In this document: one piece after another, positions 11,089-28,957 of the stretch | Layout: each line of letters starts with the position of its first letter | How positions within the stretch are numbered: position 1 is the first letter of the stretch | Assembly (NCBI GenBank): GCA_947449495.1 | Contig: CANFSB010000007.1 | Coordinates: 1 to 60,623 of the forward strand | Source of the DNA: Pseudomonadota bacterium | GTDB lineage: Bacteria > Pseudomonadota > Gammaproteobacteria > Steroidobacterales > Steroidobacteraceae | Length of the DNA stretch: 60,623 bases | Direction of reading: 5' to 3' | The notes under the pieces: generated by a model | The model's input: only the letters and a program-made list of their open reading frames with translations | What the model was told of the DNA's origin: nothing | Databases searched by the model: none | Position numbers and translations under genes: made by a program

Positions 11089-11209
11089 CGAGCTCCCCTT
11101 TTTTGAATCAAATCTCAACGTGCCGGGCAGCCCTCAGGCAGATCCCCGCGTTGCATTTAGAAGCAACTTGTACCCGCAACCTAGTGGAGCCGAAGCCCCT
11201 TGGCAACCC

Positions 11210-12121
11210 TTACCGTATGACAGGCGCGATACGCACCGGCTCGGTAGTGGGCCACCAGCGCGACGTAGAAAGCGGCAGGCCGGTAAAGAACGCGTTAATG
11301 GTACGGATCTGGCCGCCCCAAACCTTAAAGGCTTCGAAGGTGACCAGCGCGTTGCCCTCGCCATAGGCCGGGCCGGTGTAGCCGAAGTTCATCCACAACA
11401 GCACGACACCCTTGTCTTCATCGACGGCCGCGACACTGGCACTGACCGCCGGATGCAGAATGATGTTCTGATCGTATAGCCCACAGTGTGGCGGACGCAG
11501 ACACCCTGCACCGGCCAGGATCGCGCCGTTCTCAACACGGTAGGCATCGGCCGCAAACGGCGTGCCGGCATCCACAAAACTGCCGATGCGCAAGCCCTCG
11601 CTGTAGCTAAGCGCCGTGCGCACCATCGACTCACGCGACTGACGCTTGCCGCTGGGAACAGGATCTTCCATGCCGCGCACCGGCTTGCCCAGTTCTGTGG
11701 GTTTGAGTCTTGAGTCCGGCGTGACGCGTTGCACCAGCGTTTCGATGCCACCGATGCGACGGTCCTGCACATGCAGCACCACCGAATACAACACCGACGT
11801 AGTGCCCTCCATTAGGTGCACATGCGTGGCGGCCTTTTGCTTGGCTACATCCAGGTAGTCGTGACGAAAGGTGCCCTTGCCAGTCACGCTCTTCCAAAGA
11901 CCCTCACCCAACTTGGCGTCTTTGGAGTCCTCGGTGTAGCGCACCGTAGGCGACAGCAACGACAGTCGCGCCGGGTCATGGGCAACCAGAGCGTCCACAT
12001 ACTGATTCAGCAGACCGCCCAGGCAGGCGCGGTCGCAGGCATGAGCCTGAGCAGCTGCAGCCGTACTGCTGGCAACCCAGGCCCCCACACACAGGAGGGA
12101 CAGCAAGAAACGCTTGGTCAT
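11210..12121 (-). CDS. exported SnoaL/DUF8021-like protein
   Basis: 303 residues from the ATG at 12121, which has an AAAGGGGCAGGG site; an open frame reaches further upstream to 12169. Signal peptide to about Ala25, then C-D-R-A-C-L-G-G, the same start as the N-terminal part of the esterase at 2100-4487. Two NTF2-like halves can be seen: one around L-N-Q-Y-V-D-A-L-V-A-H-D and R-Y-T-E-D, the second from A-L-S-Y-S-E-G-L with V-T-F-E-A-F-K-V. Function unknown. It starts 14 bases after the DUF6152 fusion gene stop, so the two are in one operon. Confidence 0.65.
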   Translation of the reverse strand: MTKRFLLSLLCVGAWVASSTAAAAQAHACDRACLGGLLNQYVDALVAHDPARLSLLSPTVRYTEDSKDAKLGEGLWKSVTGKGTFRHDYLDVAKQKAATHVHLMEGTTSVLYSVVLHVQDRRIGGIETLVQRVTPDSRLKPTELGKPVRGMEDPVPSGKRQSRESMVRTALSYSEGLRIGSFVDAGTPFAADAYRVENGAILAGAGCLRPPHCGLYDQNIILHPAVSASVAAVDEDKGVVLLWMNFGYTGPAYGEGNALVTFEAFKVWGGQIRTINAFFTGLPLSTSRWWPTTEPVRIAPVIR

Positions 12122-12135
12122 GCCCTGCCCCTTTG

Positions 12136-13308: not shown

Positions 13309-14334
13309 TCAGAACGGCAGCGTAGCCAGCTGCGTGCTGCGAAATGCAAACTCCAGAAACTGGTTCGGATCACCCAATTGCTGCAGCAGCGGGTTGCCGA
13401 GCAGTGGCCGCTCGGCCACCACGGGCACCACGCCCTTGAACTCTTTGCCTGCGTTGAACTGCGCCACGTCCACCGGACCGAAGCCCTTGTTGAACAGCAC
13501 GAAGAACTGTTTGAACAGTTGCCAATACAGGTCTTTCATCTTGATCAGATCGGCGCCTGTCATCACCGGGCCATTGGCGGGAATGACGCGCGTGCCGGGC
13601 TTTACCAGCTCAGACAGCATGTCGTACGAGCGCACGAAGCCGTGCATGAAGCCACCGTTGAGATAATCCAACACTGGCCAGCGATCGGAAGTCACCGGAC
13701 CACCGGCCACCAGCACGTTGCGCTTGGGGAAGTACACATACAGGTCACCGCCGGTATGTGCGCCGGGCAGGTGACGGTATTGCACTTGTTCGCCTGCGAA
13801 GTCGAACTCACCGGCGTCATAGGTGGTCTTGGTCGGACGCGCAGCCTGCGACAATGGACCGATGGTGCCGTCAAACAGCGGTGAGTGCAGCTTGCGCCCC
13901 AGGGCCAACTTGGTGACCTCGTGGCTGATGATCGTAGCGCCATCCTTACCGGCCGATTCATTAAGGCCTGTCTGGTCCGGATGCCAGTGCGTATTGAGGA
14001 GCGTGCTGATACGCCGTGTGCCCAGCCGTGCGTGCACAGCCTGCAGCAGCAGCGCCGCGTTGACCGATTGACCGCCGTCAATCAGCAGCGCGCCTTGTGG
14101 GCTCTGCAAGCCAACCACATTGCAGCCACTACCGGCGAACAGCGCCAGACCACCAATGTCCTGCTGCGTGATGTCTTTGGCAGACACCTTCTTGCCGACG
14201 AAAGGCTTGGTGATCTGCGAATAGTCGATGCCGGCCGGTGGAGCGTCGAGCAGCGGCGCAGTGGCGGCCAACAATGGCGCAGCGAAGGTCAGCTGCGCAC
14301 TGCCGCTCAAAAAATGTCGACGGGAAAGGGTCAT
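13309..14334 (-). CDS. Tat-exported MBL-fold protein with degenerate metal site
   Basis: 341 residues. The N-terminus MTLSRRHFLSGSAQLTFAAP is a near-perfect Tat signal. The metallo-beta-lactamase fold is recognisable by L-L-I-D-G-G at 83-88, THWHPDQTGLN at 115-125 (HxHxDH changed to HxHxDQ, with Gln121 for the last His) and PGAHTGGD at 190-197. The strand that normally gives the bridging Asp reads L-V-A-G-G-P, and the last ligand loop reads IPANGPVMTG at 251-260 in place of the usual P-G-H-G. So several zinc ligands are missing, in contrast with the intact MBL protein at 19879-20820. It may bind one metal, or have lost hydrolysis and serve another role. It follows the ankyrin gene by 11 bases. 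Confidence 0.78.
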   Translation of the reverse strand: MTLSRRHFLSGSAQLTFAAPLLAATAPLLDAPPAGIDYSQITKPFVGKKVSAKDITQQDIGGLALFAGSGCNVVGLQSPQGALLIDGGQSVNAALLLQAVHARLGTRRISTLLNTHWHPDQTGLNESAGKDGATIISHEVTKLALGRKLHSPLFDGTIGPLSQAARPTKTTYDAGEFDFAGEQVQYRHLPGAHTGGDLYVYFPKRNVLVAGGPVTSDRWPVLDYLNGGFMHGFVRSYDMLSELVKPGTRVIPANGPVMTGADLIKMKDLYWQLFKQFFVLFNKGFGPVDVAQFNAGKEFKGVVPVVAERPLLGNPLLQQLGDPNQFLEFAFRSTQLATLPF

Positions 14335-14345: not shown

Positions 14346-15914
14346 TTAGCGCGTGACGACCGATTCGACCGGCCAGAGCACGGAGTCGTACACAGCCGTA
14401 GCAATAGGAGGGCCCTGCGGCGGCCAGTCTGGTGTTGCAGTTAATTCGACCTTGGCACCGAGCTTGCGCAGGTTGGCAGCCAGCGGGTTGTTGGGCGGCT
14501 GCGCCATTTGCAAGAACGCCACGTAGCCGCGCCCCATCGCGTAATCGAGAGCAGTAAGCCCGTCGTCGTCCTTGGCGTTGATGTCCAGCTTGAGATCGAG
14601 CAGCGCCTGGATGAGCTGTGGGTTGCCGCCGTTGCGCACCACATAGTGCAGTGCCGAACCACCGCGCGTGCGCGCGAGGAAGTGACGCTTGGACATCAGG
14701 TTGACGTCCGCACCGGCACCTGCCAGCAGCTTGACCAGATCGACCTGCGGATTACTGCGAGCCCCACGCGGTGCATCATCACCTTCGGAAGGTGGCGCCG
14801 CTTCCAGCGGACCCAAGGCCGGTCTGCCGCCGCGACCACCGCGAGAGTTCACGGCCATGATGATCGGGCCGCGACCGTCGGCTGTGGCCAGGTGCACATT
14901 GGCGCCGTGCGCCATCAGCAGCTTGACCACGTCGATGTTGCCACTGCCACAGGCCGCCAGAAAAGGCGTAAGACCGCGATCTGATGCACCGCCAAAACCC
15001 GATGCACCAAAATGCTGTTGCTGATTGGGGTTGGCACCGCGCTCGACCAGCATGTTTACCAGGTCGCGACCAGTAGTCTTGTTGGGTTGGTCGTTGTCGA
15101 GCGGATTTCGGCTGTTGGCCGTCTGCATGTTGCTGATGGCCACATGCAGCGGCGCGCGACCGTACCAGTCCCAGGCGTTTACATCGGCACCGGCCTCGAC
15201 CAAGCGCTTGGCAATGTCCCAATTGGCATTGAGCATGGCAACCGACAGCGGCCCGACCTCGCTGGGGTCGCCCAAATCCACATCAGCCTTATGCTTGAGC
15301 AGGATGTCGATGCACTGGCGGCAATTCTCACGGGCGGCGTATAGCAGCGGCGTGAACCCGCCGCGCTCAAGCGACTTGGCACGGCTTTCGGCAGTCACGA
15401 CACGCTGATAATCGCGAATGGTGCTGCGCGCGTTGACGTTGGCACCCTTGGACGCCAGCAACTCGACCATGGCCAGCTGGCGGCGCGCCACAGCCCACAT
15501 CAGTGGCGTCTGACCACCGAAGTGCTCGCGTGCATCAACCTTGGCACCTGCCTTGAGCAACAACTTGGCTGCCTCGACATTGCCGGCACGCGCCACCAGG
15601 TGCAGTGCGGTTTCGCCATCGGCATTAGGCGACTGCGCATCGGCACCGGCCTTGAGCAGCAGCGCAATCAGCGGCGTATTGGCACTGTCGGCGGCCAACT
15701 GCATGGCGTTGACGCCATACACATTCGTAGCTCGCACATTGGCGCCGGCCTTGATCAGTCGCTGAGCAGCAGCAACGTCGCCTTCAAATGCCGCCACCTG
15801 CAGCGCAGTGCTGCCGTCCGCATTGACCGGCTCATCTACCTTAGCGGCGGTCGCGCTGGCCGTGGCCAGCAGTGCTACAGCGACCGACGCTGCAAGAAGT
15901 CGCCCTCGTGCCAT
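14346..15914 (-). CDS. exported ankyrin-repeat protein (cassette 1)
   Basis: 522 residues. Signal peptide to about Ala23, followed by roughly ten ankyrin repeats with the typical G-x-T-A-L-x-x-A-A and L-L-x-x-G-A-x-x units (for example D-G-E-T-A-L-H-L-V-A, G-L-T-A-L-D-Y-A). Ankyrin repeats bind proteins; a secreted one beside DUF1552 and DUF1592 genes suggests it assembles or protects those partners in the periplasm (inference). A GAGG site lies in the 4-base gap region after the DUF1552 stop, so the genes are translationally linked. A second ankyrin gene in the same relative position is at 20883-22790. Confidence 0.85.
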   Translation of the reverse strand: MARGRLLAASVAVALLATASATAAKVDEPVNADGSTALQVAAFEGDVAAAQRLIKAGANVRATNVYGVNAMQLAADSANTPLIALLLKAGADAQSPNADGETALHLVARAGNVEAAKLLLKAGAKVDAREHFGGQTPLMWAVARRQLAMVELLASKGANVNARSTIRDYQRVVTAESRAKSLERGGFTPLLYAARENCRQCIDILLKHKADVDLGDPSEVGPLSVAMLNANWDIAKRLVEAGADVNAWDWYGRAPLHVAISNMQTANSRNPLDNDQPNKTTGRDLVNMLVERGANPNQQQHFGASGFGGASDRGLTPFLAACGSGNIDVVKLLMAHGANVHLATADGRGPIIMAVNSRGGRGGRPALGPLEAAPPSEGDDAPRGARSNPQVDLVKLLAGAGADVNLMSKRHFLARTRGGSALHYVVRNGGNPQLIQALLDLKLDINAKDDDGLTALDYAMGRGYVAFLQMAQPPNNPLAANLRKLGAKVELTATPDWPPQGPPIATAVYDSVLWPVESVVTR

Positions 15915-15918
15915 GTGC

Positions 15919-17196
15919 TTACGCCTCGCTGAATGTGCCGGTGGCGTCGCCGAAGTGCTCTACCTGCACACCGGCCCGCTGCGACATCGTCAGCAGCACG
16001 TTGGCCAGCGGCGTGTCTTTGGGTGCAGAGATGTGCTGACCACCCTTGAAGCCACCACCCTTACCCAGCACCAGCACTGGCAGCTGGCTGCAGTTGTGCA
16101 GATCTGAATTGCCCAGGTTGGAGCCGTACATGATCATCGAGGTGTCGAGCAGGCTCTGATTGCCTTCCTTGATGCTGTCGAGCTTCTTGGCAAACTTGGC
16201 GAAGCGCTCCATCTGCCAGGTCTGCACGCGGCGCAGCTTTTCTTGCTTGTCCGGGTCTTCGCCGTGATGAGACAGCGGGTGATAGGCCTCATCCACATTG
16301 ATGGATGGGAAGGTGCGCATCGAGGCTTCTTTGATCATGCGCAGCGAGGCCACGCGTGTCTGGCCGGTTTGATAGGCCAGCGCCACCATCTCGAACTGCA
16401 CATCGACCAGCTCGGTGAAGTCATCAGGCGTGCCACGCGGCGCGTCGGGCAGTTGACCTAAGCTGTCGGCCTTGGCCATCAACTTAGCAACGCGACTCTC
16501 GACCTCGCGGATCGACTCCATGTAATCGCTGACCAGCACACGATCGCTGGCACCGAGCTTGCTGCTGAGCATCTTGCTGGATTCCAGAACATAGTCGAGC
16601 AGGCTATCGGTGGCCTTGAGGCGGGCGACACGATCTGTGTTGGAGTCGCCGGGGCCAAACATCGTATAGAACAGCTTGCGCGGATTGCCTTCGAGCGGAA
16701 GGCTGCGGTTGAGGCCGGTGAACGACGTGGCGCCACCCGGCTCTGCGCACAGTTCCAGCGAGGTGAGCGGCGTGTCCTTGCCAATCGCCTTGGCAATCAA
16801 CTGGTCCACCGAGATGCCAGCCTGTGGGCCCCACGTGTTGAGCTGCGGATCCTGCACCGTAAGCCAGGTCTGCTCGGTGATGCCATGCGGCGGATTCTGC
16901 CGCTCACCGGATTTGTTGCGGATGTTGGTGATCACCGTGACGTAGTCACGCACCCCTTCCATCGGCTTGAGGATGGGCGAGAGCTCGAATGCTTTACCGG
17001 TGGTCTTGGGCACCCAGAACTTTTCGACAGCGCCGTGTGGCACATAGACAAAGCCAACGCGGGGTTTGACTGCAGCGGCAGTGGCGGCTAGCGCCGTGCC
17101 GGCCGGGATCATCGCGTCGAGCAGCGGCAATGCGATGGCAGCGCCAGCACCCTTGAGCAGCGTGCGGCGGGGAATGTGCTTCTTAGTAATGAACAT
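15919..17196 (-). CDS. Tat-exported DUF1552 (HxxSHH) family protein, cassette 1
   Basis: 425 residues. The start MFITKKHIPRRTLLKGAG carries a twin-arginine signal. The DUF1552 signature is visible: PLSHHGEDPDK in the last third (the HxxSHH motif as H-P-L-S-H-H), M-Y-G-S-N-L-G-N-S-D-L-H and V-L-G-K-G-G-G-F-K-G-G-Q-H near the C-terminus. The family is thought to be related to the sulfatase/alkaline phosphatase-like group; no activity is established. It lies 23 bases after the DUF1592 gene and 4 bases before the ankyrin gene. The protein at 22810-24162 is its paralogue, with nearly the same first eight residues. Confidence 0.88.
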   Translation of the reverse strand: MFITKKHIPRRTLLKGAGAAIALPLLDAMIPAGTALAATAAAVKPRVGFVYVPHGAVEKFWVPKTTGKAFELSPILKPMEGVRDYVTVITNIRNKSGERQNPPHGITEQTWLTVQDPQLNTWGPQAGISVDQLIAKAIGKDTPLTSLELCAEPGGATSFTGLNRSLPLEGNPRKLFYTMFGPGDSNTDRVARLKATDSLLDYVLESSKMLSSKLGASDRVLVSDYMESIREVESRVAKLMAKADSLGQLPDAPRGTPDDFTELVDVQFEMVALAYQTGQTRVASLRMIKEASMRTFPSINVDEAYHPLSHHGEDPDKQEKLRRVQTWQMERFAKFAKKLDSIKEGNQSLLDTSMIMYGSNLGNSDLHNCSQLPVLVLGKGGGFKGGQHISAPKDTPLANVLLTMSQRAGVQVEHFGDATGTFSEA

Positions 17197-17219
17197 GATG
17201 TTCTATGCCTCCAGCTGGG

Positions 17220-19694
17220 CTACTGAACAGTCGAAACAAGCTGAGCGGTGGTGGTCTTGGGCAGCGGCGCCGCAGGCGCAGCACGGCGACGGAAGGCATC
17301 GCTGTTGACAACGCCCATCATCAACGCCTCGAAACTCAGACCCTCGGCCGTGGCCTTGCGCACGATGGCACGCACTGCCGGCATGTCATCGTGATCAACA
17401 TGGCGGCCTACCGCATAGGTCATCAGCTTCTCGGTAAGAATTTGCGAGAACTGATCGCCGCGTGCGGCCAATGCCTTGTGCAGATCTGCCGGGCCAGACA
17501 GACGCTCACCGCTGGGCATCGTGGCCGCCGAATCTATAGGCAGACGCGACTGCGGGTCGATCTTGCGGTAAGCACCCACCGTATCGAAATTCTCTAGTGC
17601 AAAGCCCAGCGGATCCATTACAGCATGGCAGCTGGCGCAGGACTTGTTGGCGCGGTGGATCTCGGTCTGCTCACGCACCGTGGCAGCTTTGCCCTTCACC
17701 GCATCAGCCAAGTCCGGCACGCTGGCCGGCGGCGCGGCCGGCGGTGTGCCCAAGATGCGCTCGAGAATCCAGGCGCCGCGCAGCACGGGTGCGGTGCGAT
17801 TGGGGTTGGCTGTCAGCATCAACACTGCGCCCTTACCCAACAAGCCGTGGCGGTTGGGATCGGTCAGCGCAACCTTGTGGAAGCCATTGCCGCGGATATC
17901 GGTCATACCGTAGATAAGCGCGACCTGTTCGTTGATGTAGGTGTGATCGGCTGTCAGCAGATCGGTGACAGGACGGTCGGCGCGCAGGATGCTGTCCATG
18001 AACAGCTCCAGCTCTTTCTTGAGTGCCGGGCGCGGGTCATACACACCGCTGGCATGCTGGAACAGCGCAGCCGAAGGGACGATGGAATCCATCTTGGCCA
18101 CGTTGAGCCACTGGAAGGCGAAGTCCCGAGTCAACGAGATGCCACGCGGATCGGCGATCATGCGATGCACCTGCGCACGCAGTACATCGGGCTTGGCCAG
18201 ATCGCCCTTCTCGGCGGTCTTCAGCAGTTCCTCGTCGGGCAGGCTACTCCACAGCACCAGCGCCAAACGCGAGGCCAGCTCCAATTGCGTCAGCTCGCGA
18301 CCGCCTGCCTCTGCGGGACCTTCAACGCGATAGAGAAAGTGCGGGCTCACCAGAATGGCTGCGATGGCTTCGCGCACACCGCCCTCAAAACCGTCGGCCT
18401 TGGAGCCCTTGTCGTAGAAGGCCAGCAGCGGACTCATGTCCTCAGCGGTAACCGGACGGCGGAAGGCCTGGCGTGCAAGTCGGCCCAGGATGCTCTGCGC
18501 ACAGGCGCGCTCATCAGCAGCGCTTGACGGTTTGCAGGTAAAGATTTTTTTGCGGCTGGGCGAGTCGCTCATGCCAGTGATTTTGACAGGGCCTTTGACC
18601 TGGAAGACATGCACAGCAGGTACGCGATGCTGACCGCCTTCCAACGCATTGGCAGGGCGCCGGTCGTCGCCGGGCTGGTACTGCAAGGTGCGCGAATCGC
18701 TTTCGGCATAGCTGCGGCGCAGGAAAGTCACAGCCAGCGTGTGTTGGCCCGCAGTGGCTGTGAAACGGATGTCCTTGAGCCGGCCGTTGATCTGCGCTAC
18801 CGCATCATCCAGACGTTGATCGATTGCTGTGTGATCGTCTTCGCCACCGATTGTGGTGCGCCAGATTTCCTTGCCATCAAGCAATGCAATGACGGTGTTC
18901 TCGAACTCCATGTTGGGCACGGTGCGAGCCAACGCCATATCGCCGATGGTGAGCACGTAGTCACCGTCGGCAGGGAAGTTGTGCAACGCGCTCATGCCAC
19001 CGCGCGTGCCAAAGGGCATGCCGTCCTTATAGCGACGTTGATTGCCAGACCCTACGGCCGGCGCGGCCGCCAGCGACAGGATCATGTTGGGCACCAGACC
19101 ATAAGTGGTCTCAAGCGGCACCGACTTCGGATCGCCTACGGCCAGCAGAGCCAGCGAACGCGACGCAGTGACCGCTTGGTCCATAAACGACGCGTTCATC
19201 TGCAGCAGGTCGGCGTTGGTATCGAAGTCATCTTTGAGAGGGTCTTGCGGCAACCAAGTGGCCGCGTCGATTTGCAGACCCAGCAGGTCGTGCACCGCGT
19301 TGGCGTATTCACGGCGATTGAGACGACGCAGCGGCACATAGCCCACATGCGGAGCCACTTCCTGCGCCTTGTCTAGCGTGGTTTCAAGCCACTTGACCAT
19401 GCTCTGCACTGCGGCGCGATCTGGTTGCTTCTCGGTCGGCGGCGGCATCAGGCCGCTGCGCAACTTCTTGATGGCGGTTTCCCAGATCTTGGCGTTCTGC
19501 GGCACATCATCGGCAGACAGGGTGTCGAGGGCGACGCTACCGGCCCAGTCGGTAGTGTTGTGGCAGCCAAAGCAGTAGGTTTCGACGGTCTTCCAGTTGG
19601 CCGCGTGTGTATCGGCAGCCGCTGCCGGGTTCGCCACGCCCACGATCGCACCCAGACCCGCCACCATTGCCAGCAGTTGCTTCGAACTCAGCAC
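17220..19694 (-). CDS. exported DUF1592-type cytochrome-like protein (DUF1587/1592/1595/1588/1585), cassette 1
   Basis: 824 residues from a GTG at 19694, which has a GGGGG site and starts a good signal peptide (LLAMVAGLGAIVGVANPAAA). The open frame runs on to 20036, but that part is GC-rich noise and overlaps the divergent MBL gene. Two CxxCH heme-type motifs are visible: C-F-G-C-H at 41-45 in an N-terminal cytochrome-c-like segment, and C-A-S-C-H near 686-690, followed by D-P-L-G-F-A-L-E-N-F-D, the DUF1588/DUF1585 signature. The middle holds RRLNRREYANAVHDLLGL (DUF1587) and R-L-A-L-V-L-W-S-S-L-P-D-E (DUF1592/1595). Such proteins are known from Planctomycetes, Acidobacteria and Myxobacteria; function is unknown, and periplasmic electron transfer or oxidation is inferred. 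Confidence 0.85.
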   Translation of the reverse strand: MLSSKQLLAMVAGLGAIVGVANPAAAADTHAANWKTVETYCFGCHNTTDWAGSVALDTLSADDVPQNAKIWETAIKKLRSGLMPPPTEKQPDRAAVQSMVKWLETTLDKAQEVAPHVGYVPLRRLNRREYANAVHDLLGLQIDAATWLPQDPLKDDFDTNADLLQMNASFMDQAVTASRSLALLAVGDPKSVPLETTYGLVPNMILSLAAAPAVGSGNQRRYKDGMPFGTRGGMSALHNFPADGDYVLTIGDMALARTVPNMEFENTVIALLDGKEIWRTTIGGEDDHTAIDQRLDDAVAQINGRLKDIRFTATAGQHTLAVTFLRRSYAESDSRTLQYQPGDDRRPANALEGGQHRVPAVHVFQVKGPVKITGMSDSPSRKKIFTCKPSSAADERACAQSILGRLARQAFRRPVTAEDMSPLLAFYDKGSKADGFEGGVREAIAAILVSPHFLYRVEGPAEAGGRELTQLELASRLALVLWSSLPDEELLKTAEKGDLAKPDVLRAQVHRMIADPRGISLTRDFAFQWLNVAKMDSIVPSAALFQHASGVYDPRPALKKELELFMDSILRADRPVTDLLTADHTYINEQVALIYGMTDIRGNGFHKVALTDPNRHGLLGKGAVLMLTANPNRTAPVLRGAWILERILGTPPAAPPASVPDLADAVKGKAATVREQTEIHRANKSCASCHAVMDPLGFALENFDTVGAYRKIDPQSRLPIDSAATMPSGERLSGPADLHKALAARGDQFSQILTEKLMTYAVGRHVDHDDMPAVRAIVRKATAEGLSFEALMMGVVNSDAFRRRAAPAAPLPKTTTAQLVSTVQ

Positions 19695-19878
19695 AGAACC
19701 CCCGTTGGTCGCCGGCTGGGCCGACGATCCGTCCACTATCTTTGAACACTGAGTATAGGAGCCATTACTGGGGTGGGGGTACTCCTTTATAGGCCGTTGA
19801 CCGCCGCGGCCGCACCTGTAAAGGTACGCAACGTATCTGCACAAAAGCCGTGCCGCCGCTGGCCGAGCCGGGGGAACC
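19695..19878. promoter_or_regulatory. divergent upstream region with inverted repeat
   Basis: The 184 bases between the divergent DUF1592 and MBL genes should hold both promoters. TATAGGAG (19754-19761) and CTCCTTTATA (19782-19791) form an imperfect inverted repeat, and GAGTA (19751-19755) also pairs with TACTC (19780-19784). It could be an operator. I could not fix -35/-10 boxes. Confidence 0.35.
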
Positions 19879-20820
19879 ATGAAGACGCAACATTTCGCAG
19901 CCATCGCCCTGACCACCTCGCTGATGGCAGGCGCCGCCCTAGCCCAAGAAGCGCCTTCGGTCGCACCGGCAGCGCCCGCCCCGCCACCTGCCGCGCCCCG
20001 AGCACCTCCCCCGCCCATGACCATCACCCAGGTCAAGCCCGGCCTTTATTTCATCGTGGGTGGAGGCGGTAACTCCGAACTGCTGACCACCGCCAACGGT
20101 GCCCTGCTCGTCGATACCAAAAACCTCAATGACAAGGACTACGGCGACCTGATGACCCTCATCAGTTCGGTTACCGACAAGCCTGTCAAAGTGGTGATCG
20201 ACACGCACCATCACGCCGACCACACGGGCAACAACGAGAAATTCATTGCTGCCGGAACCAAGGTGATTGGCCAGGAAACGATGCCCAAAATCCTGCAGAA
20301 CTACACCACGCGCCTGGCACCCCACACGCCGGCCGCGCCCACCACCCTGTACTCCAAATTCATGCGTGTGCGTCTGGGCAAGCACACCGATGCACGGCTA
20401 TACCACTTCGGGCCCGGACACACCGGTGCCGATACGCTGGTCTATTTTGGCAACCAGAAGGCCATCGCCTTTGGTGACCTGCTGGTGATGGATCCGACCG
20501 TGCCCAACTACGATGCCGGCAACGGTGGTGGTTCGCTGCTTGGTCTGCAGCACGCTCTGGCGGAGAGTCTGAAGCTGCGTTGGGATGTTGCCTTTCCGGG
20601 CCACGGCGGCAAGACCTTCACGCGCGATGAGGTCAAGGCCTACAAGACCAAAATCGACACGTTGATTACCCGCATCAAGGCGGCCATCGATGCCGGCACT
20701 CCCAAAGAAGAGCTGATCGCATCGCTCAATACCGCGGACTTAGGCTGGAAGATCGGCGGCCAGTTCTGGGCTCCGCCCGAGCGCGTGGATGCGCTGGTGG
20801 CAGAGCTGTCCGGCAAGTAG
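19879..20820 (+). CDS. exported MBL-fold metallo-hydrolase
   Basis: 313 residues. Signal peptide to Ala22, then a Pro/Ala-rich linker (about 24-47) and a complete metallo-beta-lactamase domain: HHHADH at 110-115 (HxHxDH), GPGHTGAD at 178-185, F-G-D at 198-200 for the bridging Asp, and F-P-G-H-G-G for the last ligand. The set suits a dinuclear zinc hydrolase in the periplasm, of the subclass B/quinoprotein-relay-like type; substrate unknown. Ribosome binding site ccgggggaacc. It is the only + strand gene in this stretch and is divergent from DUF1592 cassette 1. The degenerate relative is at 13309-14334. Confidence 0.85.
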   Translation: MKTQHFAAIALTTSLMAGAALAQEAPSVAPAAPAPPPAAPRAPPPPMTITQVKPGLYFIVGGGGNSELLTTANGALLVDTKNLNDKDYGDLMTLISSVTDKPVKVVIDTHHHADHTGNNEKFIAAGTKVIGQETMPKILQNYTTRLAPHTPAAPTTLYSKFMRVRLGKHTDARLYHFGPGHTGADTLVYFGNQKAIAFGDLLVMDPTVPNYDAGNGGGSLLGLQHALAESLKLRWDVAFPGHGGKTFTRDEVKAYKTKIDTLITRIKAAIDAGTPKEELIASLNTADLGWKIGGQFWAPPERVDALVAELSGK

Positions 20821-20835
20821 CGGGGGCCACGTAGC

Positions 20836-20870
20836 GGCCCACCAGTTCCCGTTATAGGGAAAGGTGGGCG
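20836..20870. terminator. imperfect hairpin between convergent genes
   Basis: CCCACC-ag-TTCCC (20838-20850) pairs with GGGAA-a-GGTGGG (20857-20868) around a 6-base loop. It sits between the MBL stop at 20820 and the ankyrin stop at 20883 and may serve both directions. No T tract. Confidence 0.45.
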
Positions 20871-20882
20871 CCACATCGTGCA

Positions 20883-22790
20883 TTAGCGGTTGAGGCTCAT
20901 CGGGTCATAGCCCGGACGGCACACTTCGACGATGCACAACGACTCAAGCGTGCGGCCCTCGGGCGGGGCTTTGACGCCGGCCTTTAGCATGAGGTCACGC
21001 AGCACCTTCGACGTATCCGGATGCGGAATGGCCGACTGCACACCGACACGCACCAAGCCATCGGCATAGTCGATCGGCAACCACGTGTGAGCCGAGAGCT
21101 CGGGGCTGCCGCGATTGTCAGTGTTGCCGAAATCACGCACGTCCATCTTGGCGCCGGCTGCTACCAACACCTTCACCACTTCGGTGGCACCCTTGTGCGC
21201 CGCACCGTGCAGCGCCACGCGACCAGTGTCGGCCTGGAAGTTGGGGTTGATGCCTAGCGACAGCAGATACTTGATGGAATCCACTGTCTCTTGAGTGGAG
21301 CGCTCTTTGGTAACGCCTTCCACCCAGCCAATACCTGCGGCCACCGCCAGCGGTGTCACGCCAAGCTTGGTGTTGATCTTCGGGTCCGCACCGCGAGCGA
21401 CCAGCAGCTTGAGCAGCGCCAGATCACCAGACTGCGCTGCACGCAGGAAGGCCGTCGCACCCTCTTCGTTCAGCCATTGGTTGGTAAACACCGTGCGAGT
21501 CTCAGTGCTCTCGGTGATGCGCGCGTTGACGTTGGCGCCCTTGTCGAGCAGCAGCGTGATGAACGCAAGGCTGTCCAAGTCGGCCTCGCGCGTGGGGTAG
21601 TCGCCGCCTTCAATGTTGCGGTTGTCGGTGGCCAGATACAGCGGTGTCCAGCCACCCTTGTTGGCCAGATTCACATTGGCGCCGCGCTCAATGAGGAACT
21701 TGCCCATCTGATAGTTCTGGTTCTGCGTCGCAGCCAGCAGCGGACTCCAGCCATAGCGAGTGGTCTGGTTCACGTCGGCGCCACCATCGAGCAGCGCGCG
21801 CGCGGCATCAATTTTGCCGGTGCGTGCCGCATAGACCAACGCGGTCAAAGCACCGCCATCGGGTTCACGTGGTGGCGGACGACGGCCACGGCCACTGCTG
21901 ACAGGTACCGGATCGCCATTGGCATCGAGCACAGGATTGCCGTCGGCATCGAGCTCAAACGCCACTTCTCCACCCACACCTGCACCAGCGTTGCCACCCG
22001 CACCGGCCACAGTGACGAAGCCCAACCCACGACGCTCGATGCCTTTGCACAGATCGGCTTCAGGAATGGTGCGTTGGCCAGCGCCCAACAGGATGACGCG
22101 CTGCTCACGCACCTGTGCCAAATCAGGATTCTTGGCTTCGCACAACGCAGCGATGTTCTGCTGACGCACGGCGCGGCGAGGATCTTCGGAATTACCCAAA
22201 GCGGCCGAACGTCCATCGCGCATCACAGGCTTGGCCAGTGCCGCCACATTCGCGCCGTTTTTGATCAATTCACGCAGCACATCGGCGTGGCCCTGATCCG
22301 CAGCCTGCATCAATGCGTTGGTACCGCGCTCGCTCTCGACGGCATTGATCTCAGCGCCGCGCTCAAGCAAAGCACGCACGGCAGTCACACTGCCCGAGCG
22401 TGCCGCCAGCATCAGCGGACGACGCCCCAGCGGCAGCTGTTCGTTGGCGTCAGCACCACCCTTGAGCAGCACCTGAATCACTGCAGCATCGCCATGGGAG
22501 GCAGCCAACCACATCGGCGTGGCACCGTTGTGATTGCCCAAGGCCGGCTTGGCGCCGGCCTTCAACAACCGCTCGGTCAACTTCACATCCCCGCGATAGG
22601 CGGCCCACTGCAGCGCGGTGGCGCCGTCAGCCTGTTGTGCGTTGACATCGGCACCGCTCTTGAGCAGACGCTCAATAGTGGCCGTATCGCCCTTGCTTGC
22701 AGCGGCAGCAATCTCTACTTGCGCCAATGCAGTGCCGGCCATTGCCGATAACACTGCAGCACAGAGCACTTTGGATATGAGGCTACGCAT
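20883..22790 (-). CDS. exported ankyrin-repeat protein with Asp-rich insert (cassette 2)
   Basis: 635 residues from the ATG at 22790, chosen because CGAGGA lies 7 bases before it; another ATG is at 22799. Signal peptide to about Ala23. Ankyrin repeats occupy about 30-185 and again about 312-600. They are separated by an insert of about 125 residues (185-312) that has cysteines at 217 and 248, a Gly-rich stretch and the acidic repeat D-A-D-G-N-P-V-L-D-A-N-G-D at 281-293, which resembles a calcium-binding loop (inference). The C-terminus has two further cysteines (S-L-C-I-V-E-V-C). It follows DUF1552 of cassette 2 by 19 bases. The ankyrin gene of cassette 1 lacks the insert. Confidence 0.83.
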   Translation of the reverse strand: MRSLISKVLCAAVLSAMAGTALAQVEIAAAASKGDTATIERLLKSGADVNAQQADGATALQWAAYRGDVKLTERLLKAGAKPALGNHNGATPMWLAASHGDAAVIQVLLKGGADANEQLPLGRRPLMLAARSGSVTAVRALLERGAEINAVESERGTNALMQAADQGHADVLRELIKNGANVAALAKPVMRDGRSAALGNSEDPRRAVRQQNIAALCEAKNPDLAQVREQRVILLGAGQRTIPEADLCKGIERRGLGFVTVAGAGGNAGAGVGGEVAFELDADGNPVLDANGDPVPVSSGRGRRPPPREPDGGALTALVYAARTGKIDAARALLDGGADVNQTTRYGWSPLLAATQNQNYQMGKFLIERGANVNLANKGGWTPLYLATDNRNIEGGDYPTREADLDSLAFITLLLDKGANVNARITESTETRTVFTNQWLNEEGATAFLRAAQSGDLALLKLLVARGADPKINTKLGVTPLAVAAGIGWVEGVTKERSTQETVDSIKYLLSLGINPNFQADTGRVALHGAAHKGATEVVKVLVAAGAKMDVRDFGNTDNRGSPELSAHTWLPIDYADGLVRVGVQSAIPHPDTSKVLRDLMLKAGVKAPPEGRTLESLCIVEVCRPGYDPMSLNR

Positions 22791-22809
22791 AGTGTTCATC
22801 CTCGAGCCG

Positions 22810-24162
22810 TTACACCAAGCCGGGCAGATGTCCCGTGCTGTCGCCGACACTGTCGCGCTGAATGCCGAACTGATCGAGGACACTGAGCAACAGGTTGCCG
22901 GTCGGCACTTGCTTGGTCGGGAACGCCAGATGGCGGCCGCCCTTGAGCTTGCCGTTGTTGCCGCCGATCAGAATATGCGGCACGTCGTAGTGCGCATGCT
23001 GATTAGGGTTGCCCATGTTGCTGCCGTACATCAACAGCGAGTGATCAAGCAGCGAACCATCGCCATCGTTGGTGTTGGCTAGCCTGTCGACAAAGTAGGC
23101 CATCATCTTGACGTGATACTGGTTGATCTTGGACAGCTGGTTGATCAGGTTCGGATCTTCACCGTGGTGCGAGCCGCCATGGAAGCCCAGTGTCGGAGAA
23201 CCACTCTCCGGATACACACGACCGGTCAGATCGCGCGCGAACAGCATGGTGCTGACACGAGTGATGTCGGCCTGGAAAGCCAGCGTCAGCAAGTCGAACA
23301 TGATCTTGATGTGCTGATCGAAGGACTGCGGAATGCCCGGGGGCACCGCGAAACCATCCGGTGCTGCAGTCGTCGCGCTGGCGGCGATAGTCAGGCGACG
23401 CTCGATTTCGCGCACGTTCTCGGTAAAAGCATCCAGACGGGCGCGATCCGGCGCGCTGACCGCATTGCGCACGCCCTTGATCTTGTCGTTGACCGAATCG
23501 AGGATGCTCTGGTTGCGCTCACGACGCATCACGCGCTGCTCTGCAGTGCTGCCACTACCGAACATGCGCTCGAACACCACCTGCGGGTTCAGCTCCATCG
23601 GCAATGGCGTGTTGGGCGCGGCCCACGAGATCGTATTGGTATAGACGCAGCTGTAGCCTTCGCCGCAGTTGCTGGAACCCGAACCCGGGTCTTCCACAGA
23701 AATCTCTACGGACGGCAGCAAGGTTTCCTGACCGTAGCGGGCAGCGATGATCTGGTCGATGGTCTGGCCGGCGTACACATCGGCGCCGGCGGTCTTGCGA
23801 GGCTTCTGCGCGCACAGGTAGGCCGCAGCGACCCAGTGGTCAGCACCAGTTTCACCCGGAGGCGGCTCAGCAGAACGCGAGTGCAGGCCGCTGAGGATAT
23901 TCAGATGCTGGCGATACGGCTCCATCGGCTTCCAGATGAACGGCAGCTCCGCGGGCAAAGCACCCACTTTTTCAGGAATCCAGTAGCCGGGGGCAGCGCC
24001 GTGTGGCACGAAGCCACCAAAGAACCGCGGCGGTGTATTGGCAGCAGTCTTAGCCTGAGCCGTCATGGCAGGAAGCATTGCATCTAGCAATGGCAGCGCC
24101 AGCGCAGCACCAGCGCCGCGCAACAAGGTACGACGGTCGATGTGCTTCTTGGTAATGAACAT
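22810..24162 (-). CDS. Tat-exported DUF1552 (HxxSHH) family protein, cassette 2
   Basis: 450 residues from the ATG at 24162, with a GGGGGGAG site that overlaps the end of the preceding gene; the frame is open to 24189. MFITKKHIDRRTLLRGAG is a twin-arginine signal. The HxxSHH motif is G-F-H-G-G-S-H-H-G-E-D-P, followed by M-Y-G-S-N-M-G-N and L-I-G-G-N-N-G-K-L-K-G-G-R-H. Compared with the cassette 1 protein it has an extra segment containing G-E-G-Y-S-C-V-Y. It starts 4 bases after the DUF1592 stop, so expression is coupled. Function unknown; exported folded and probably working with the DUF1592 protein. Confidence 0.88.
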   Translation of the reverse strand: MFITKKHIDRRTLLRGAGAALALPLLDAMLPAMTAQAKTAANTPPRFFGGFVPHGAAPGYWIPEKVGALPAELPFIWKPMEPYRQHLNILSGLHSRSAEPPPGETGADHWVAAAYLCAQKPRKTAGADVYAGQTIDQIIAARYGQETLLPSVEISVEDPGSGSSNCGEGYSCVYTNTISWAAPNTPLPMELNPQVVFERMFGSGSTAEQRVMRRERNQSILDSVNDKIKGVRNAVSAPDRARLDAFTENVREIERRLTIAASATTAAPDGFAVPPGIPQSFDQHIKIMFDLLTLAFQADITRVSTMLFARDLTGRVYPESGSPTLGFHGGSHHGEDPNLINQLSKINQYHVKMMAYFVDRLANTNDGDGSLLDHSLLMYGSNMGNPNQHAHYDVPHILIGGNNGKLKGGRHLAFPTKQVPTGNLLLSVLDQFGIQRDSVGDSTGHLPGLV

Positions 24163-24166
24163 GGTG

Positions 24167-26554
24167 TTACTCCCCCCTCGACGCAACAACGGCTGATTTC
24201 ATATTCATGGTGAAAGTCGGACTCTGAACCACGCCCATGATCAGTGAAGAAAACTTGTAGTTGTCCTTCGCGGCGTTGTGCGCCAGCGAACGGACCAGCG
24301 GCATATCCTTGTAATCCAGACCGCGGCCGATGGCGTAGGTCAGCAGGTTCTCGATCACGACTTCCGTGAACACTTCGCGCTTACGTATCGAGAACTCACG
24401 TAGGCCTTTAATGCCGTCAATGCGCGTGCCGTCCGAAATGGACGCGGCCGAGTCGATCGGGATACCGATTTCGGTCGTGCGCCACTGGCCCACCGCGTCG
24501 AAGTTTTCCATGGCCAAGCCCATAGGCTCGAACATCTTGTGGCAACTGGCGCAGGTCGGGTTGGTGGTGTGCAGCACCAAGCGCTCGCGCATGGTCTTGG
24601 GGCTTTCGCCGACCTTCTGATCCAACTTGGTTTCCACGCCGGGCGGCGGGTCCGGTGGGCTCACACCCAGGAAAGTTTGCAGATACCACTTGCCACGCTT
24701 AACCGGTGAAGTACGTGCTGCGTCAGAGGTAATTGTCAGCAACGCGCCCTTGCCCAACAAACCTTTGCGTATGTCCTGATCGGGCCCCAAGGTAACCCGA
24801 CGGAACTGCGCGCCATAGATGCCGGGGATACCGTAGTGCTTGGCAAGTCGCTCGTTGACGAAGGTGTAATCGGCCGTCAACAGCTCGTTCACGCTGCGGT
24901 CTTCTTGGATGATGCTGCCGAAGAACAGCTCGACTTCGCGCTTGAACGCGTCACGCAGTGTGCTGTCAAAATCCGGGAACAGATTGACCACTGGCTCGCT
25001 GGCAGCGATGCCGCGAATGTTGAGCCACTGGCCGGTGAAGTTGCGCACTAACGCCTGTGAACGCGGGTCGGCGATCATGCGATCCACCTGCTTTTTGAGC
25101 ACTTTCGGCTCATGCAGCTTGTTAGCCGCAGCAAGGTTGATCAGCTCTACGTCGGGGATGCTGCTCCACAGGAAGAACGACAGGCGCGATGCCAGTTCAA
25201 TGTCGTTGATGCGATAGCCAGTGCCCGCGGTCAGCTGGGCCGGCTCGATCTCGGAGCGGTAAATAAAATCCGGATCGGTCAGCAATCGCTGGATGACCGC
25301 TTCGATGCCGCTGTCGAACTTGCCGCCTTGGTCACGCGCGCTGCGATAAAACGCAGTCATGACTTTAAGGTCTGCGTCGCTGGCAGGCCGGCGGAAGGCC
25401 TTGGTGGTCAAGGTAGTGATGATCTTGCGCGCGCAGTCGGCTTCCTCGCTGGAGCTGCGCGGGTAGCACTCAAAGATGCTGCGGCGGCTCTGCGTATCGG
25501 TGGCCGGCTTGCCCTTGAACGGTCCTTCGACGAATACCTGACCCACGTGCGGGTAGAAGGTGTAACCAGAGATTGAACCGGGGGAGTTCATGGTGCGCTG
25601 GAAAGACTTGTTGAGGCCGGTGTCGGGCAGATCGCTGGTGGCGAGGAAGGCCACGCCGATGCGATGAAAGCCGGCCTTGATGGGCAGCGCTGGCGTCTTG
25701 CCGCCATCACTGCGCGTAGGCGCAATCTCTTTGTCCCAGTCGTACAAGTAAACCCGCTTGCCATCAACGGTGACTTCGAGCTTTTCGCCCTTCACGTTGC
25801 CAAGCACCGCCGTGAAGTAACCGGTCATGCCCTTGACGGTCAGCGTGTACTCACCGTCAGCAGGGAACTCGTGCTCAATGAGCAGACCGCCACGGGTGCC
25901 AAACGGCAGGCCTTCTACGTAATCGTTTTGGCTGGTGTCGTGCGGTGCGTCGAACACGGCCAGCGTCGGCGCAGTTTCGGTGCCGATGGCCAATCGGCTG
26001 ATGTTGCCAGCCGCTGACAAATAAGCCTCGAGCAAGGCCGGCGACGTGGTCAAAGTGCCCGCCATGTTATCGAAGCCATGGCTGGAGTCGTCGGACGGCA
26101 GAAACTTTGATGCATCGACGTTCAGACCCAGCAGGTCTCTGACCGCGTTGCTGTATTCAGTGCGATTCAAGCGATGCAGCCCTGGCGCGGGCAGGTGAGC
26201 CCCCGTGGTGACAGCCTGCTTATCGATGCTCTGCTCCAGCATTTTTGCCAGTTGCTGCACCATCTCGTAGGAGGGCCGATCTTTGCCAACAGGCGGCATC
26301 ATGTCGGCACGCAGGCGCTTGATCAGCTTCTCGCCGACGTCTGGCTTCTCGACAATGTTCGCAGCAGAGGTACCGATCAGATCGAGGCCGCCAGCGTAGT
26401 CGCTGTCGTTGTGGCATTCGGTGCAGTACTTCTGGATCAGCGCACCGCTATCCACACTGGTGTGCTGCGCAACGGCGGCTTGCGAGAACAAAGTGACGCC
26501 CACGAGCATGAACATGCCACGGCAAGCAAGCTTCAACAAAAACATCGATCGCAT
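24167..26554 (-). CDS. exported DUF1592-type cytochrome-like protein, cassette 2
   Basis: 795 residues. Signal peptide to about Ala29 (F-S-Q-A-A-V-A-Q). Heme-type motifs C-T-E-C-H at 44-48 and C-A-S-C-H at about 668-672, the latter followed by E-P-M-G-L-A-M-E-N-F-D. LHRLNRTEYSNAVRDLLGLN is the DUF1587 signature, and R-L-S-F-F-L-W-S-S-I-P-D the DUF1592/1595 one. Same domain order as the protein at 17220-19694, but overall clearly diverged, so the duplication is not recent or the two were acquired separately. Ribosome binding site ggcgggggtgtt. It heads the cassette and its upstream region is the 554-base gap at 26555-27108. Confidence 0.86.
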   Translation of the reverse strand: MRSMFLLKLACRGMFMLVGVTLFSQAAVAQHTSVDSGALIQKYCTECHNDSDYAGGLDLIGTSAANIVEKPDVGEKLIKRLRADMMPPVGKDRPSYEMVQQLAKMLEQSIDKQAVTTGAHLPAPGLHRLNRTEYSNAVRDLLGLNVDASKFLPSDDSSHGFDNMAGTLTTSPALLEAYLSAAGNISRLAIGTETAPTLAVFDAPHDTSQNDYVEGLPFGTRGGLLIEHEFPADGEYTLTVKGMTGYFTAVLGNVKGEKLEVTVDGKRVYLYDWDKEIAPTRSDGGKTPALPIKAGFHRIGVAFLATSDLPDTGLNKSFQRTMNSPGSISGYTFYPHVGQVFVEGPFKGKPATDTQSRRSIFECYPRSSSEEADCARKIITTLTTKAFRRPASDADLKVMTAFYRSARDQGGKFDSGIEAVIQRLLTDPDFIYRSEIEPAQLTAGTGYRINDIELASRLSFFLWSSIPDVELINLAAANKLHEPKVLKKQVDRMIADPRSQALVRNFTGQWLNIRGIAASEPVVNLFPDFDSTLRDAFKREVELFFGSIIQEDRSVNELLTADYTFVNERLAKHYGIPGIYGAQFRRVTLGPDQDIRKGLLGKGALLTITSDAARTSPVKRGKWYLQTFLGVSPPDPPPGVETKLDQKVGESPKTMRERLVLHTTNPTCASCHKMFEPMGLAMENFDAVGQWRTTEIGIPIDSAASISDGTRIDGIKGLREFSIRKREVFTEVVIENLLTYAIGRGLDYKDMPLVRSLAHNAAKDNYKFSSLIMGVVQSPTFTMNMKSAVVASRGE

Positions 26555-27108: not shown

Positions 27109-28950
27109 ATGACTGACGACAAACACGCCCAGTCGCCAGATTATGTCGAATCGCCCCAGGCCGAACCGGCGCTGCGTAACGCAGCGCCAATGGCTGCCGC
27201 GGCTGCACTGTTACAAGCCTGCGGTGGCGGGAGTACTGGTAACAGCTCTTCGAACACGCCCACCTCCAGCACAACACCCGAACCATTTGTCCCAGCGACG
27301 TGGTCGCCGCCAGCGGACGCGCCCTACGCGCGCTTTCTGCAGCAAGCACAGTTCGATTCGTCAGAGTCCGACATCGCAGCGGTGAAAGCCAAGGGCTACT
27401 CGGCTTGGCTCGACGAGCAGATAGCCATGACGCCAAGCCAAGGTGGTTGGGACTGGCTCAACTCCCGAGGCTATGGAGTCGTCGACAAACGAGAGTTCTA
27501 TTTTGCGGAGTGGTATCTGTCTGATTACATGATTTGGAATCAAATCGTGCGATCGCCGGACGCAGTGCGCAAACGCGTTGCACTGGCCATGACCGAATAC
27601 TTCGTGGTGGGCATCGACGGCATCACTCAACCGTGGTTTAAAGCATTCCAGCTCGCACACTACTACGACATTCTTTGTAACAACGCTTTCGGCAAATTTA
27701 GAAAGCTGCTCGAAGAGATCACGCTGTGTGTTGCGATGGGCAGCTTCCTGAACACCCTGAACAACGAGAAAGAAGACCCCAACACCGGCCGCCAGCCGGA
27801 CGAAAATTATGCTCGTGAAGTGATGCAGCTGTTCACGTTGGGCGTGAGCCAACTGAACCTTGATGGAACGCCCAAAACGGACTCGAACGGCAGTCCTCTA
27901 GACAGTTACACCCAAGCAGATGTGAGCAATCTGGCTCGGGTATTCACCGGCTATGTAACAGACGAGAGCGACGGCTACACCCAGTCGCCGGTCGCTCCTA
28001 TGTATTTTAATGTGGCGAATGTGGGCTACACCCGAAAGCCCATGAAACTATTGCCTTCACGGCATTCAATGCTGGAAAAAAGGTTCCTTGGTACTGTCAT
28101 TCCTGCCAACACCGACGGTGCTACGTCCTTAAAAATGGCGCTGGATACGCTGTTCAACCATCCAAACGTCGGCCCATTCTTTTCGCGGCAGATGATTCAG
28201 CGATTGGTCACAAGCAACCCTAGTGCCGCCTATGTGAGGCGAGTGGCGACAATCTTTAATGACAACGGCAGTGGCGTACGCGGCGACCTGAAAGCCGTTT
28301 TTAAAGCCATCCTGTTAGATGAAGATGCGCGCAGCGCCGCAACTCTGTCATCGACTACATCCGGCAAATTGCGCGAGCCGATGTTGCGCTTTGCCCAATG
28401 GGCCCGCACCTTCAAGCTAAGCTCCACAAGCGGTACCTGGAAGATCAGGCCGGCCAACAATGGCGCCGTGTCGTTGGGACAATATCCGCTGCGTTCACCA
28501 TCGGTGTTCAATTTTTTCAGGCCTGGATACGTGCCGCCAAACACGCAGCTAGCCACCCTCAAGGCCACATCACCCGAGTACCAGATCGTCAACGAATCCA
28601 GCGTCAGTCAGTACATCAACTTCATGCAAGACGTACTGCCTAGAGGCGTGTACGTGAGCGCCCCAGAGTTGCTGGAGGAGCCCAAGATGAACATGCCCAC
28701 TGATGGACATGATCTTGTACCTGACTACGCGACGGAACTCAGACTAACCACCAACCCTGTGGCACTTGTGCGTCGGCTCAATCTGATTCTGGCTGCAGGC
28801 CGTCTTTCACAGGCAACCGAGAACCTGATCATCGATGCACTGCAGTCGGACTACATCACCATCAATAGTTCGGCTACTGCAAAGCTTAACAACGTCTGTC
28901 GAGCGATTCTGTTCGTGATGTGCGCACCGGAATACTTGGTACAAAAGTGA
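27109..28950 (+). CDS. DUF1800 family lipoprotein
   Basis: 613 residues. The N-terminus has a hydrophobic stretch MAAAAALLQACGGG with a lipobox-like L-Q-A-C (Cys38), preceded by 27 polar residues, so a lipoprotein signal with an odd extension, or a start downstream at Met28. The DUF1800 domain shows F-L-Q-Q-A-Q-F, R-K-R-V-A-L-A-M-T-E-Y, N-Y-A-R-E-V-M-Q-L-F-T-L-G-V and a late H-P-N-V-G-P-F-F-S-R-Q-M-I-Q-R-L-V. Function of the family is unknown; it is nearly always encoded next to DUF1501. No good ribosome binding site at 27109. G+C is visibly lower than in the genes to the left, suggesting a different origin. Confidence 0.85.
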   Translation: MTDDKHAQSPDYVESPQAEPALRNAAPMAAAAALLQACGGGSTGNSSSNTPTSSTTPEPFVPATWSPPADAPYARFLQQAQFDSSESDIAAVKAKGYSAWLDEQIAMTPSQGGWDWLNSRGYGVVDKREFYFAEWYLSDYMIWNQIVRSPDAVRKRVALAMTEYFVVGIDGITQPWFKAFQLAHYYDILCNNAFGKFRKLLEEITLCVAMGSFLNTLNNEKEDPNTGRQPDENYAREVMQLFTLGVSQLNLDGTPKTDSNGSPLDSYTQADVSNLARVFTGYVTDESDGYTQSPVAPMYFNVANVGYTRKPMKLLPSRHSMLEKRFLGTVIPANTDGATSLKMALDTLFNHPNVGPFFSRQMIQRLVTSNPSAAYVRRVATIFNDNGSGVRGDLKAVFKAILLDEDARSAATLSSTTSGKLREPMLRFAQWARTFKLSSTSGTWKIRPANNGAVSLGQYPLRSPSVFNFFRPGYVPPNTQLATLKATSPEYQIVNESSVSQYINFMQDVLPRGVYVSAPELLEEPKMNMPTDGHDLVPDYATELRLTTNPVALVRRLNLILAAGRLSQATENLIIDALQSDYITINSSATAKLNNVCRAILFVMCAPEYLVQK

Positions 28951-28957
28951 TCTGCAC

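Follow-up and report, generated by a model that had tools for sequence, protein, structure and literature searches.

Why should a gene for a secreted ankyrin-repeat protein stand twice, in the same order, beside a pair of genes encoding DUF1592 and DUF1552 proteins? The question is raised by a 60,623-nucleotide stretch of DNA from a gammaproteobacterium of the Steroidobacteraceae (assembly GCA_947449495.1, contig CANFSB010000007.1), analysed as a whole and called the window here. On its minus strand, positions 14346-26554 hold two DUF1592-DUF1552-ankyrin gene sets, cassette A (14346-19694) and cassette B (20883-26554). All six open reading frames (ORFs) were confirmed in the order in which a preliminary description, made from the sequence alone, had placed them, and their families were confirmed by Pfam. 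In cassette A, the DUF1592 gene (17220-19694; the longest ORF extends to 20036, the start at 19694 chosen in that description being plausible) is followed by the DUF1552 gene (15919-17196) and by the gene for an ankyrin-repeat protein of 522 aa (14346-15914). Cassette B consists of a DUF1592 gene (24167-26554), a DUF1552 gene whose start was refined to 24162 (22810-24162, in an ORF to 24189) and an ankyrin gene (20883-22799; longest ORF to 22883) whose start was refined to the Met at 22799, which opens into a signal peptide. The intergenic gaps measure 4 and 23 bases in A and 10 and 4 bases in B. From the distribution of such sets on a tree of DUF1552 proteins, it seems that a single event added the ankyrin gene to an older pair of genes and that it has stayed near-obligatory in the clade that carries it.

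The tree comprises 188 DUF1552 proteins (two fragment rows were dropped from 190) and was built by a short search with SH-aLRT supports only and a long-branch warning. Genes in the loci were called with in-house hidden Markov models (HMMs) built from the proteins of the source genome, and by our own adjacency rule a DUF1592 gene is adjacent to 180 of the 190 DUF1552 rows. We scored 129 tree members as ankyrin-linked, 43 as unlinked (at least 2.5 kb on both sides) and 16 as cut. On this tree, the ankyrin state changes 3 times, compared to 31-43 times in 200 label shuffles. All linked rows fall in one 140-row clade (SH-aLRT 99), mainly of Acidobacteria and Proteobacteria, which has 129 linked, 2 unlinked (L207 and L300; labels in L, G and C denote loci, genomes and contigs of the source genome) and 9 cut members, while none of the 41 scorable rows outside it is linked. 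Four ankyrin-free Acidobacteria rows, three scorable and one cut, branch beside this clade, and the count remains at 3 changes when four plasmid proteins are added (FastTree). The simplest history that these sequences allow would have the ankyrin gene recruited once and lost twice. By itself, the tree gives no direction; it is the wide distribution of ankyrin-free pairs that suggests a gain rather than a loss.

Among 40 relatives searched, the source genome included, the same 15 carry PF07586 (DUF1552) and PF07631 (DUF1592). Genomes of the source genus mostly have 7-10 DUF1552 matches, with one only in G004. An ankyrin gene accompanies 7 of the 8 pairs of G002, a member of this genus in which the eighth pair is cut by a contig end, and 8 of the 9 pairs read in G012. 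The best 80 of 587 candidate loci from a scan of named genomes, picked for closeness to ankyrin-linked proteins, belong mostly to metagenome-assembled genomes (MAGs) titled Gammaproteobacteria or Acidobacteria (Bryobacterales, Vicinamibacteria, Terriglobia), with one Isosphaeraceae; 74 of their 82 DUF1552 rows have an ankyrin gene within 2 kb, and the 8 without are all cut by contig ends. A MAG titled Terriglobia (G041) has an ankyrin gene near 17 of 17 DUF1552 genes, 15 of them with an adjacent DUF1592 gene, and a 6.6 Mb Vicinamibacteria MAG (G042, the genome of L128) contains 43 PF07586 matches, including a few partial ones; 8 of the 43 were read, and 7 of these 8 have an ankyrin gene. The complete set also occurs on a 1.3 Mb plasmid of Novosphingobium sp. 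KACC 22771 (L301: DUF1592, 6305-8881; DUF1552, 8878-10212; ankyrin, 10169-11503), where the ankyrin protein has, by eye, a signal-peptide-like start. Two cassette-bearing loci, L085 and L115, come from MAG records titled Klebsiella pneumoniae (CAMDML01); they cluster with environmental Gammaproteobacteria, and the label is probably wrong.

Independent draws of Planctomycetota, Acidobacteria and Pseudomonadota, each count including its centre genome, yield PF07586 in 33 of 99, 9 of 60 and 8 of 398 genomes, respectively. All 19 sampled Planctomycetota pairs with full flanks are ankyrin-free, a twentieth being cut. Of the 12 pairs in G040, an Isosphaeraceae genome, 10 have no ankyrin gene, one is cut and one, nested among Acidobacteria, has it; the other ankyrin genes of this genome sit away from the pairs. 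Thus, 29 of 30 scorable Planctomycetota pairs lack an ankyrin gene within 2 kb, and the single exception was apparently transferred: the pair and ankyrin gene of L159/L177 differ in tree position from the genome's 11 other pairs, and horizontal transfer is likely. Of 17 loci in the random Acidobacteria draw, 8 have the ankyrin gene, 4 lack it despite full flanks and 5 are cut. The Pseudomonadota draw (7 matches besides the source genome, with the weak partial match of G581 excluded) has it at 1 of 6 loci, and the core pair occurs without it as the lone pair of five Pseudomonadota genomes. The idea that the ankyrin gene is conserved beside the pair in other genomes therefore holds within the clade, at 129 of 131 scorable members, and fails outside it; among the pairs studied, most of those from Acidobacteria and many of those from Proteobacteria keep the gene. 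Because the gene is absent from most Planctomycetota pairs and from the lone pairs of G004, G010 and G018, we regard it as a later addition to an older core of two genes.

The two window cassettes are part of a larger complement. Where the preliminary description counted two sets, the source genome (2.58 Mb) holds 8 PF07631 and 8 PF07586 matches that form 8 adjacent DUF1592-DUF1552 pairs. An ankyrin gene accompanies all 8, in 7 cases directly adjacent and in one with a single metallo-beta-lactamase (MBL)-fold gene between. Six of these linkages lie on one contig each, one runs across C112/C71 and one, that with the MBL gene between, across C37/C117. Since the ends of C112 and C71 overlap by exactly 149 bases, two ankyrin pieces are one gene and the ten ORF pieces matching ankyrin represent nine genes; a 149-base overlap of C37 and C117 likewise shows that the pair on C37 is followed by the ankyrin gene on C117. 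Assuming ~2400 genes, 9 of them ankyrin genes, the chance of a flanking ankyrin gene is ~0.0075 for one given pair, and the adjacency exceeds chance in this genome. The ninth ankyrin gene (C62; L053:7543-9117) has no pair on its contig and by eye adjoins a gene for an NAD-binding, NmrA-like protein; G002 likewise has a cassette-type ankyrin gene without a nearby pair (L199:5728-7302). The description of the window sets as a duplicated cassette did not survive. Their DUF1552 proteins share 37% identity, the lowest of seven comparisons with copy B in the source genome, and sit apart within the clade, each next to its orthologue from G002. Low identity and separate tree positions rule out a tandem duplication, and A and B are, judged by sequence, old paralogues.

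The ankyrin gene has changed place while remaining linked. Of 131 linked rows, 105 carry it on the strand of the pair and downstream, 12 on that strand but upstream, and 14 in divergent orientation. Protein distances in the 97 complete sets correlate at r = 0.86 between DUF1592 and DUF1552, 0.86 between DUF1592 and ankyrin and 0.89 between DUF1552 and ankyrin. In a comparison of 190 pairs inside five genomes, of which two are close relatives, species history cancels; the respective values there are 0.81, 0.77 and 0.88, and none of 999 permutations reaches the observed co-divergence. As far as protein distances can tell, the sets evolve as units; co-divergence is no proof of contact. Overall, the partial correlation of the ankyrin protein is 0.59 with DUF1552 versus 0.42 with DUF1592.

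The proteins themselves bear out the features reported from the window: in both copies, we find two CxxCH motifs in DUF1592, a twin-arginine start and an HxxSHH motif in DUF1552 and a signal-peptide-like ankyrin start. DUF1592 appears to be an exported protein with two putative c-heme attachment motifs, which are present in 113 of 114 linked and 33 of 34 unlinked members (the exceptions have 1 and 3), and C44, C47, H48, M86, C668, C671 and H672 are invariant in 41 sequences. The domain list given for DUF1592 holds for PSD3, PSD5, PSD4, PSCyt3 and PSD2 in both copies; PSCyt1 exceeds its cut-off of 22 bits only in copy A (26.9 bits) and is unlisted in copy B, though CxxCH and MPP are present there. 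In the AlphaFold model (mean pLDDT 87.9), residues ~193-349 resemble CBM36/35 domains with a Z of only 8.9, near the level of common arrangements (rmsd 2.6, 103 residues aligned); this CBM35/36-like domain is that of cassette B. The helical remainder of the model has no listed fold match and gives no evidence of a new fold.

Both window DUF1552 proteins are well over the PF07586 gathering cut-off of 30 bits (247 in A, 259 in B). The H..[ST]HH motif, HPLSHH in A and HGGSHH in B, occupies one alignment column in 167 of 188 rows, residues kept in at least 98% of these rows include H109, D136, H328, H332 and H389 (copy B numbering), and all 97 DUF1552 proteins of complete sets have a twin arginine among their first 30 residues. 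The model of the cassette B protein (mean pLDDT 82.9) adopts an alkaline-phosphatase/sulfatase fold, with a Foldseek E of 8e-5 to 4upk and VIA Z values of up to 16.5 against sulfatases and nucleotide phosphodiesterases (rmsd 4.0, 264 residues aligned). The sulfatase pattern C/S-x-P/A-x-R is found in 63 of 188 DUF1552 proteins at no common column (the best has 18), and an SDHG-like pattern in 2 of 188. DUF1552 is therefore predicted to have the fold of the alkaline phosphatase/sulfatase superfamily without its usual motifs and with a near-invariant His/Asp set of its own. The ankyrin proteins of the window match Ank_2 (191 bits in A, 197 in B), and by a home-made rule 88 of the 97 complete sets encode a signal-peptide-like ankyrin start.

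Some neighbouring genes hint at a role. On contig C15 of the source genome (L048), genes for cytochromes b561 and c' come after the cassette, as they do in the orthologous L192; both genes also occur at L202, and cytochrome c' only at L201 and L279. On the Sphingobium plasmids L302 and L305, an ankyrin-free pair is followed by cytochrome c' and b561 genes, while neither is listed beside the pair of L304. These cases, few and on distant branches, suggest electron exchange with the membrane. Pyrroloquinoline quinone (PQQ)-dehydrogenase matches occur in 5 of one set of 120 neighbour ORFs and, in a set of 115, in 5 or 7 depending on the model. We did not use a PQQ-dehydrogenase partnership as a main argument because such genes are abundant in these genomes; the source genome (G000) has 23 matches (E up to 1e-10) in its 2.58 Mb, pointing to a lifestyle of periplasmic oxidation.

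Our preferred reading, a tentative one, is that the three proteins of a cassette make up one redox unit in the periplasm (or at the cell surface), with the ankyrin protein helping to assemble or target it. DUF1552 would hold or activate a substrate at its His-rich, perhaps metal, site; the hemes of DUF1592 would accept electrons and hand them on, either to cytochrome c' and the b561 cytochrome of the membrane or to other carriers; and the ankyrin protein would bind the pair, perhaps through DUF1552, and thereby assemble, stabilise or target it. The recruitment of the ankyrin gene would have preceded the spread of the set through Acidobacteria and Proteobacteria. The expansion to 8 pairs here and up to 43 DUF1552 matches per genome suggests that substrates differ from copy to copy. 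A bolder form of this proposal, rather unlikely to hold as a whole, is a paralogue-rich periplasmic oxidative machine in which an alkaline-phosphatase-fold protein is the His-site partner of a two-heme, glycan-binding cytochrome, and in which the ankyrin adaptor, recruited a single time, was then multiplied along with the pair until a genome held dozens of versions, each for its own substrate (compare Sus-type uptake sets).

Several observations weigh against a redox unit built in this way. The ankyrin-free pairs of Planctomycetota are among them, as are the ankyrin-free lone pairs of G004, G010 and G018 and those of the five Pseudomonadota genomes. Among the loci that supplied the 190 DUF1552 rows, only 5 have a cytochrome c' or b561 gene nearby, two of these 5 being orthologues, and the plasmids add to them; neighbour families are mostly singletons (117 families in 120 ORFs, 104 in 115); and PQQ-dehydrogenase matches, at 23 to 72 per genome (two genomes partly scored), are simply common there. 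The closer tie of ankyrin to DUF1552 is not uniform: where ankyrin lies upstream (24 sets), bootstrapping places the DUF1552-DUF1592 difference between -0.21 and 0.56, and 12 divergent sets have the opposite trend (0.09 with DUF1552, 0.79 with DUF1592). On the structural side, the Z of the CBM-like match is low, and a sequence search of the PDB gave one match for DUF1552 at E 0.12 and none for DUF1592. Finally, a kinship of DUF1552 with DUF1501 and of DUF1592 with DUF1800, the families of another gene pair discussed below, was dropped after profiles gave no signal in a weak test with a single sequence on one side.

How do other explanations compare? The ankyrin protein may help the exported heme protein to mature or keep it stable, while standing outside any working complex, an alternative that we consider unlikely. 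It has precedents among ankyrin proteins that serve heme enzymes: in the accessible text of PMC10294975, the periplasmic AnkB of Pseudomonas aeruginosa serves the catalase KatB and Leptospira has an ankyrin-catalase operon, and in that of PMC11442138, the heme-delivering Cj1386 of Campylobacter jejuni binds heme and has KatA as its target. The two CxxCH motifs in nearly all DUF1592 members fit this idea as well. The partners in those systems are catalases, in contrast to DUF1592 and DUF1552 here, and no catalase family was found among 16 window proteins scanned. Moreover, catalases carry b-type heme, whereas covalent c-heme is attached by general machinery. The same two-CxxCH architecture also occurs ankyrin-free in Planctomycetota, and within genomes the ankyrin distance tracks DUF1552 (0.88) at least as well as DUF1592 (0.77). 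The fold prediction in turn raises a hydrolytic unit, in which DUF1552 would be a variant-site esterase, phosphodiesterase or sulfatase, the CBM-like domain of DUF1592 would bind glycans and the hemes would play a sensing or structural part. The match of DUF1552 to sulfatases and nucleotide phosphodiesterases and the CBM36/35-like domain both agree with it, as do PSCyt genes that lie near sulfatases and carry CBM domains in Verrucomicrobia, as described in the accessible part of PMC5615132. The absence of a shared sulfatase column, the rarity of the SDHG-like pattern and the cytochrome neighbours, which favour electron transfer, make this reading improbable too. The hydrolase component of the preliminary description is thereby weakened: a hydrolase-superfamily fold is predicted, but the motifs expected of sulfatases and phosphatases are not conserved.

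Two further explanations concern the linkage itself. It could reflect co-inheritance of a transferred block without joint function, and signs of transfer do exist in the Isosphaeraceae locus nested among Acidobacteria and in the Novosphingobium megaplasmid copy. We give this little credence, as the ankyrin gene has shifted place and strand yet stays adjacent at DUF1552 identities down to ~37%, and as 2 losses are seen among 131 scorable clade members. A PADLOC scan in which both window ankyrin proteins match PDC-M72A (140 and 235 bits) brings to mind a defence-type or contact-dependent system, where an exported enzyme would be neutralised by the ankyrin protein. These matches span the ankyrin repeats, however, the six other proteins scanned have no match, and the core pair exists without ankyrin; this explanation strikes us as very improbable.

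The gene neighbourhood of the cassettes includes MBL-fold genes, which the preliminary description overlooked while placing the six cassette genes correctly. One, on the minus strand at 13309-14334 and 11 bases 3' of ankyrin A, encodes a protein with a twin-arginine start and a degenerate metal motif, HWHPDQ; the other, on the plus strand at 19879-20820, lies between the cassettes, divergent from DUF1592 A, and has an intact HHHADH motif. The latter is the nearest MBL gene to cassette B and is common to A and B. An MBL-fold gene lies near 7 of the 8 pairs in the source genome, the remaining pair having its upstream side cut by a contig end, and near 8 of 8 in G002; beyond the source lineage, the gene is less regular. 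In five of the six twin-arginine MBL proteins in the source genome, the final His of HxHxDH has been lost (HWHPDQ twice, HWHADQ, HWHGDR and HYHADQ), with HCHADH intact, and because of this loss they may not be ordinary hydrolases and are possible pseudo-enzymes. Those beside cassettes mostly lack this His (13309-14334, L047, L050 and the joined C112/C71 and C37/C117). The quinoprotein relay zinc metallohydrolases (TIGR04558/TIGR04559) are the best or near-best NCBIfam models for the window MBL proteins, but at 49-69 bits against cut-offs of 280-300; for TIGR04559, the scores are 55.9 and 69.1 bits, under the cut-off of 280.

Further out on the minus strand, a gene for a DUF6152 protein (12136-13272) and one for a protein without a Pfam match (11210-12169) separate cassette A from MFS and RPE65-family genes. 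The RPE65-family gene (8212-9681, minus strand) is nearest to lignostilbene dioxygenase, and by eye another RPE65 match (L049:3363-4796) adjoins the C21 cassette. A role in lignin or aromatic catabolism was set aside, as the window gene falls under the NCBIfam cut-off (490 of 800 bits) and RPE65 occurs in only 1 of 120 neighbour ORFs. On the plus strand, 27109-33044 holds DUF1800, DUF1501 and G8/CEMIP beta-helix genes in series, a second type of DUF pair adjoining the cassettes. DUF1800-DUF1501, reported as an operon in the available portion of PMC5122149, is likewise a DUF pair with a Tat-exported second member (27109-30406 in the window).

Among described systems, the Planctomycete-type PSCyt3/PSD genes (DUF1587-1588-1585-1592-1595) share the domains and the two-gene pair of the window cassettes, which add a secreted ankyrin gene and, in the source lineage, an MBL-fold gene. 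According to the accessible text of PMC5615132, PSCyt3 genes usually adjoin a family of genes without known function, which we infer to be DUF1552. Our literature search, which covered few subscription papers, found neither the ankyrin linkage nor a publication naming DUF1592 together with DUF1552, and the linkage does not appear in the portions available of PMC5615132, PMC5122149, PMC10294975, PMC11442138, PMC3932732, PMC6004670 and PMC2754498.

DUF1552 is widespread, with up to 43 matches per genome, and the ankyrin linkage provides a third handle on the function of its pair with DUF1592. To our knowledge, secreted ankyrin repeats with a near-obligate partner are unusual outside host-interacting bacteria. 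A culture-collection strain, Novosphingobium sp. KACC 22771, bears all three genes on a plasmid, which opens the PSCyt question to bench work. The linkage points to an uncharacterised periplasmic machine in some environmental bacteria.

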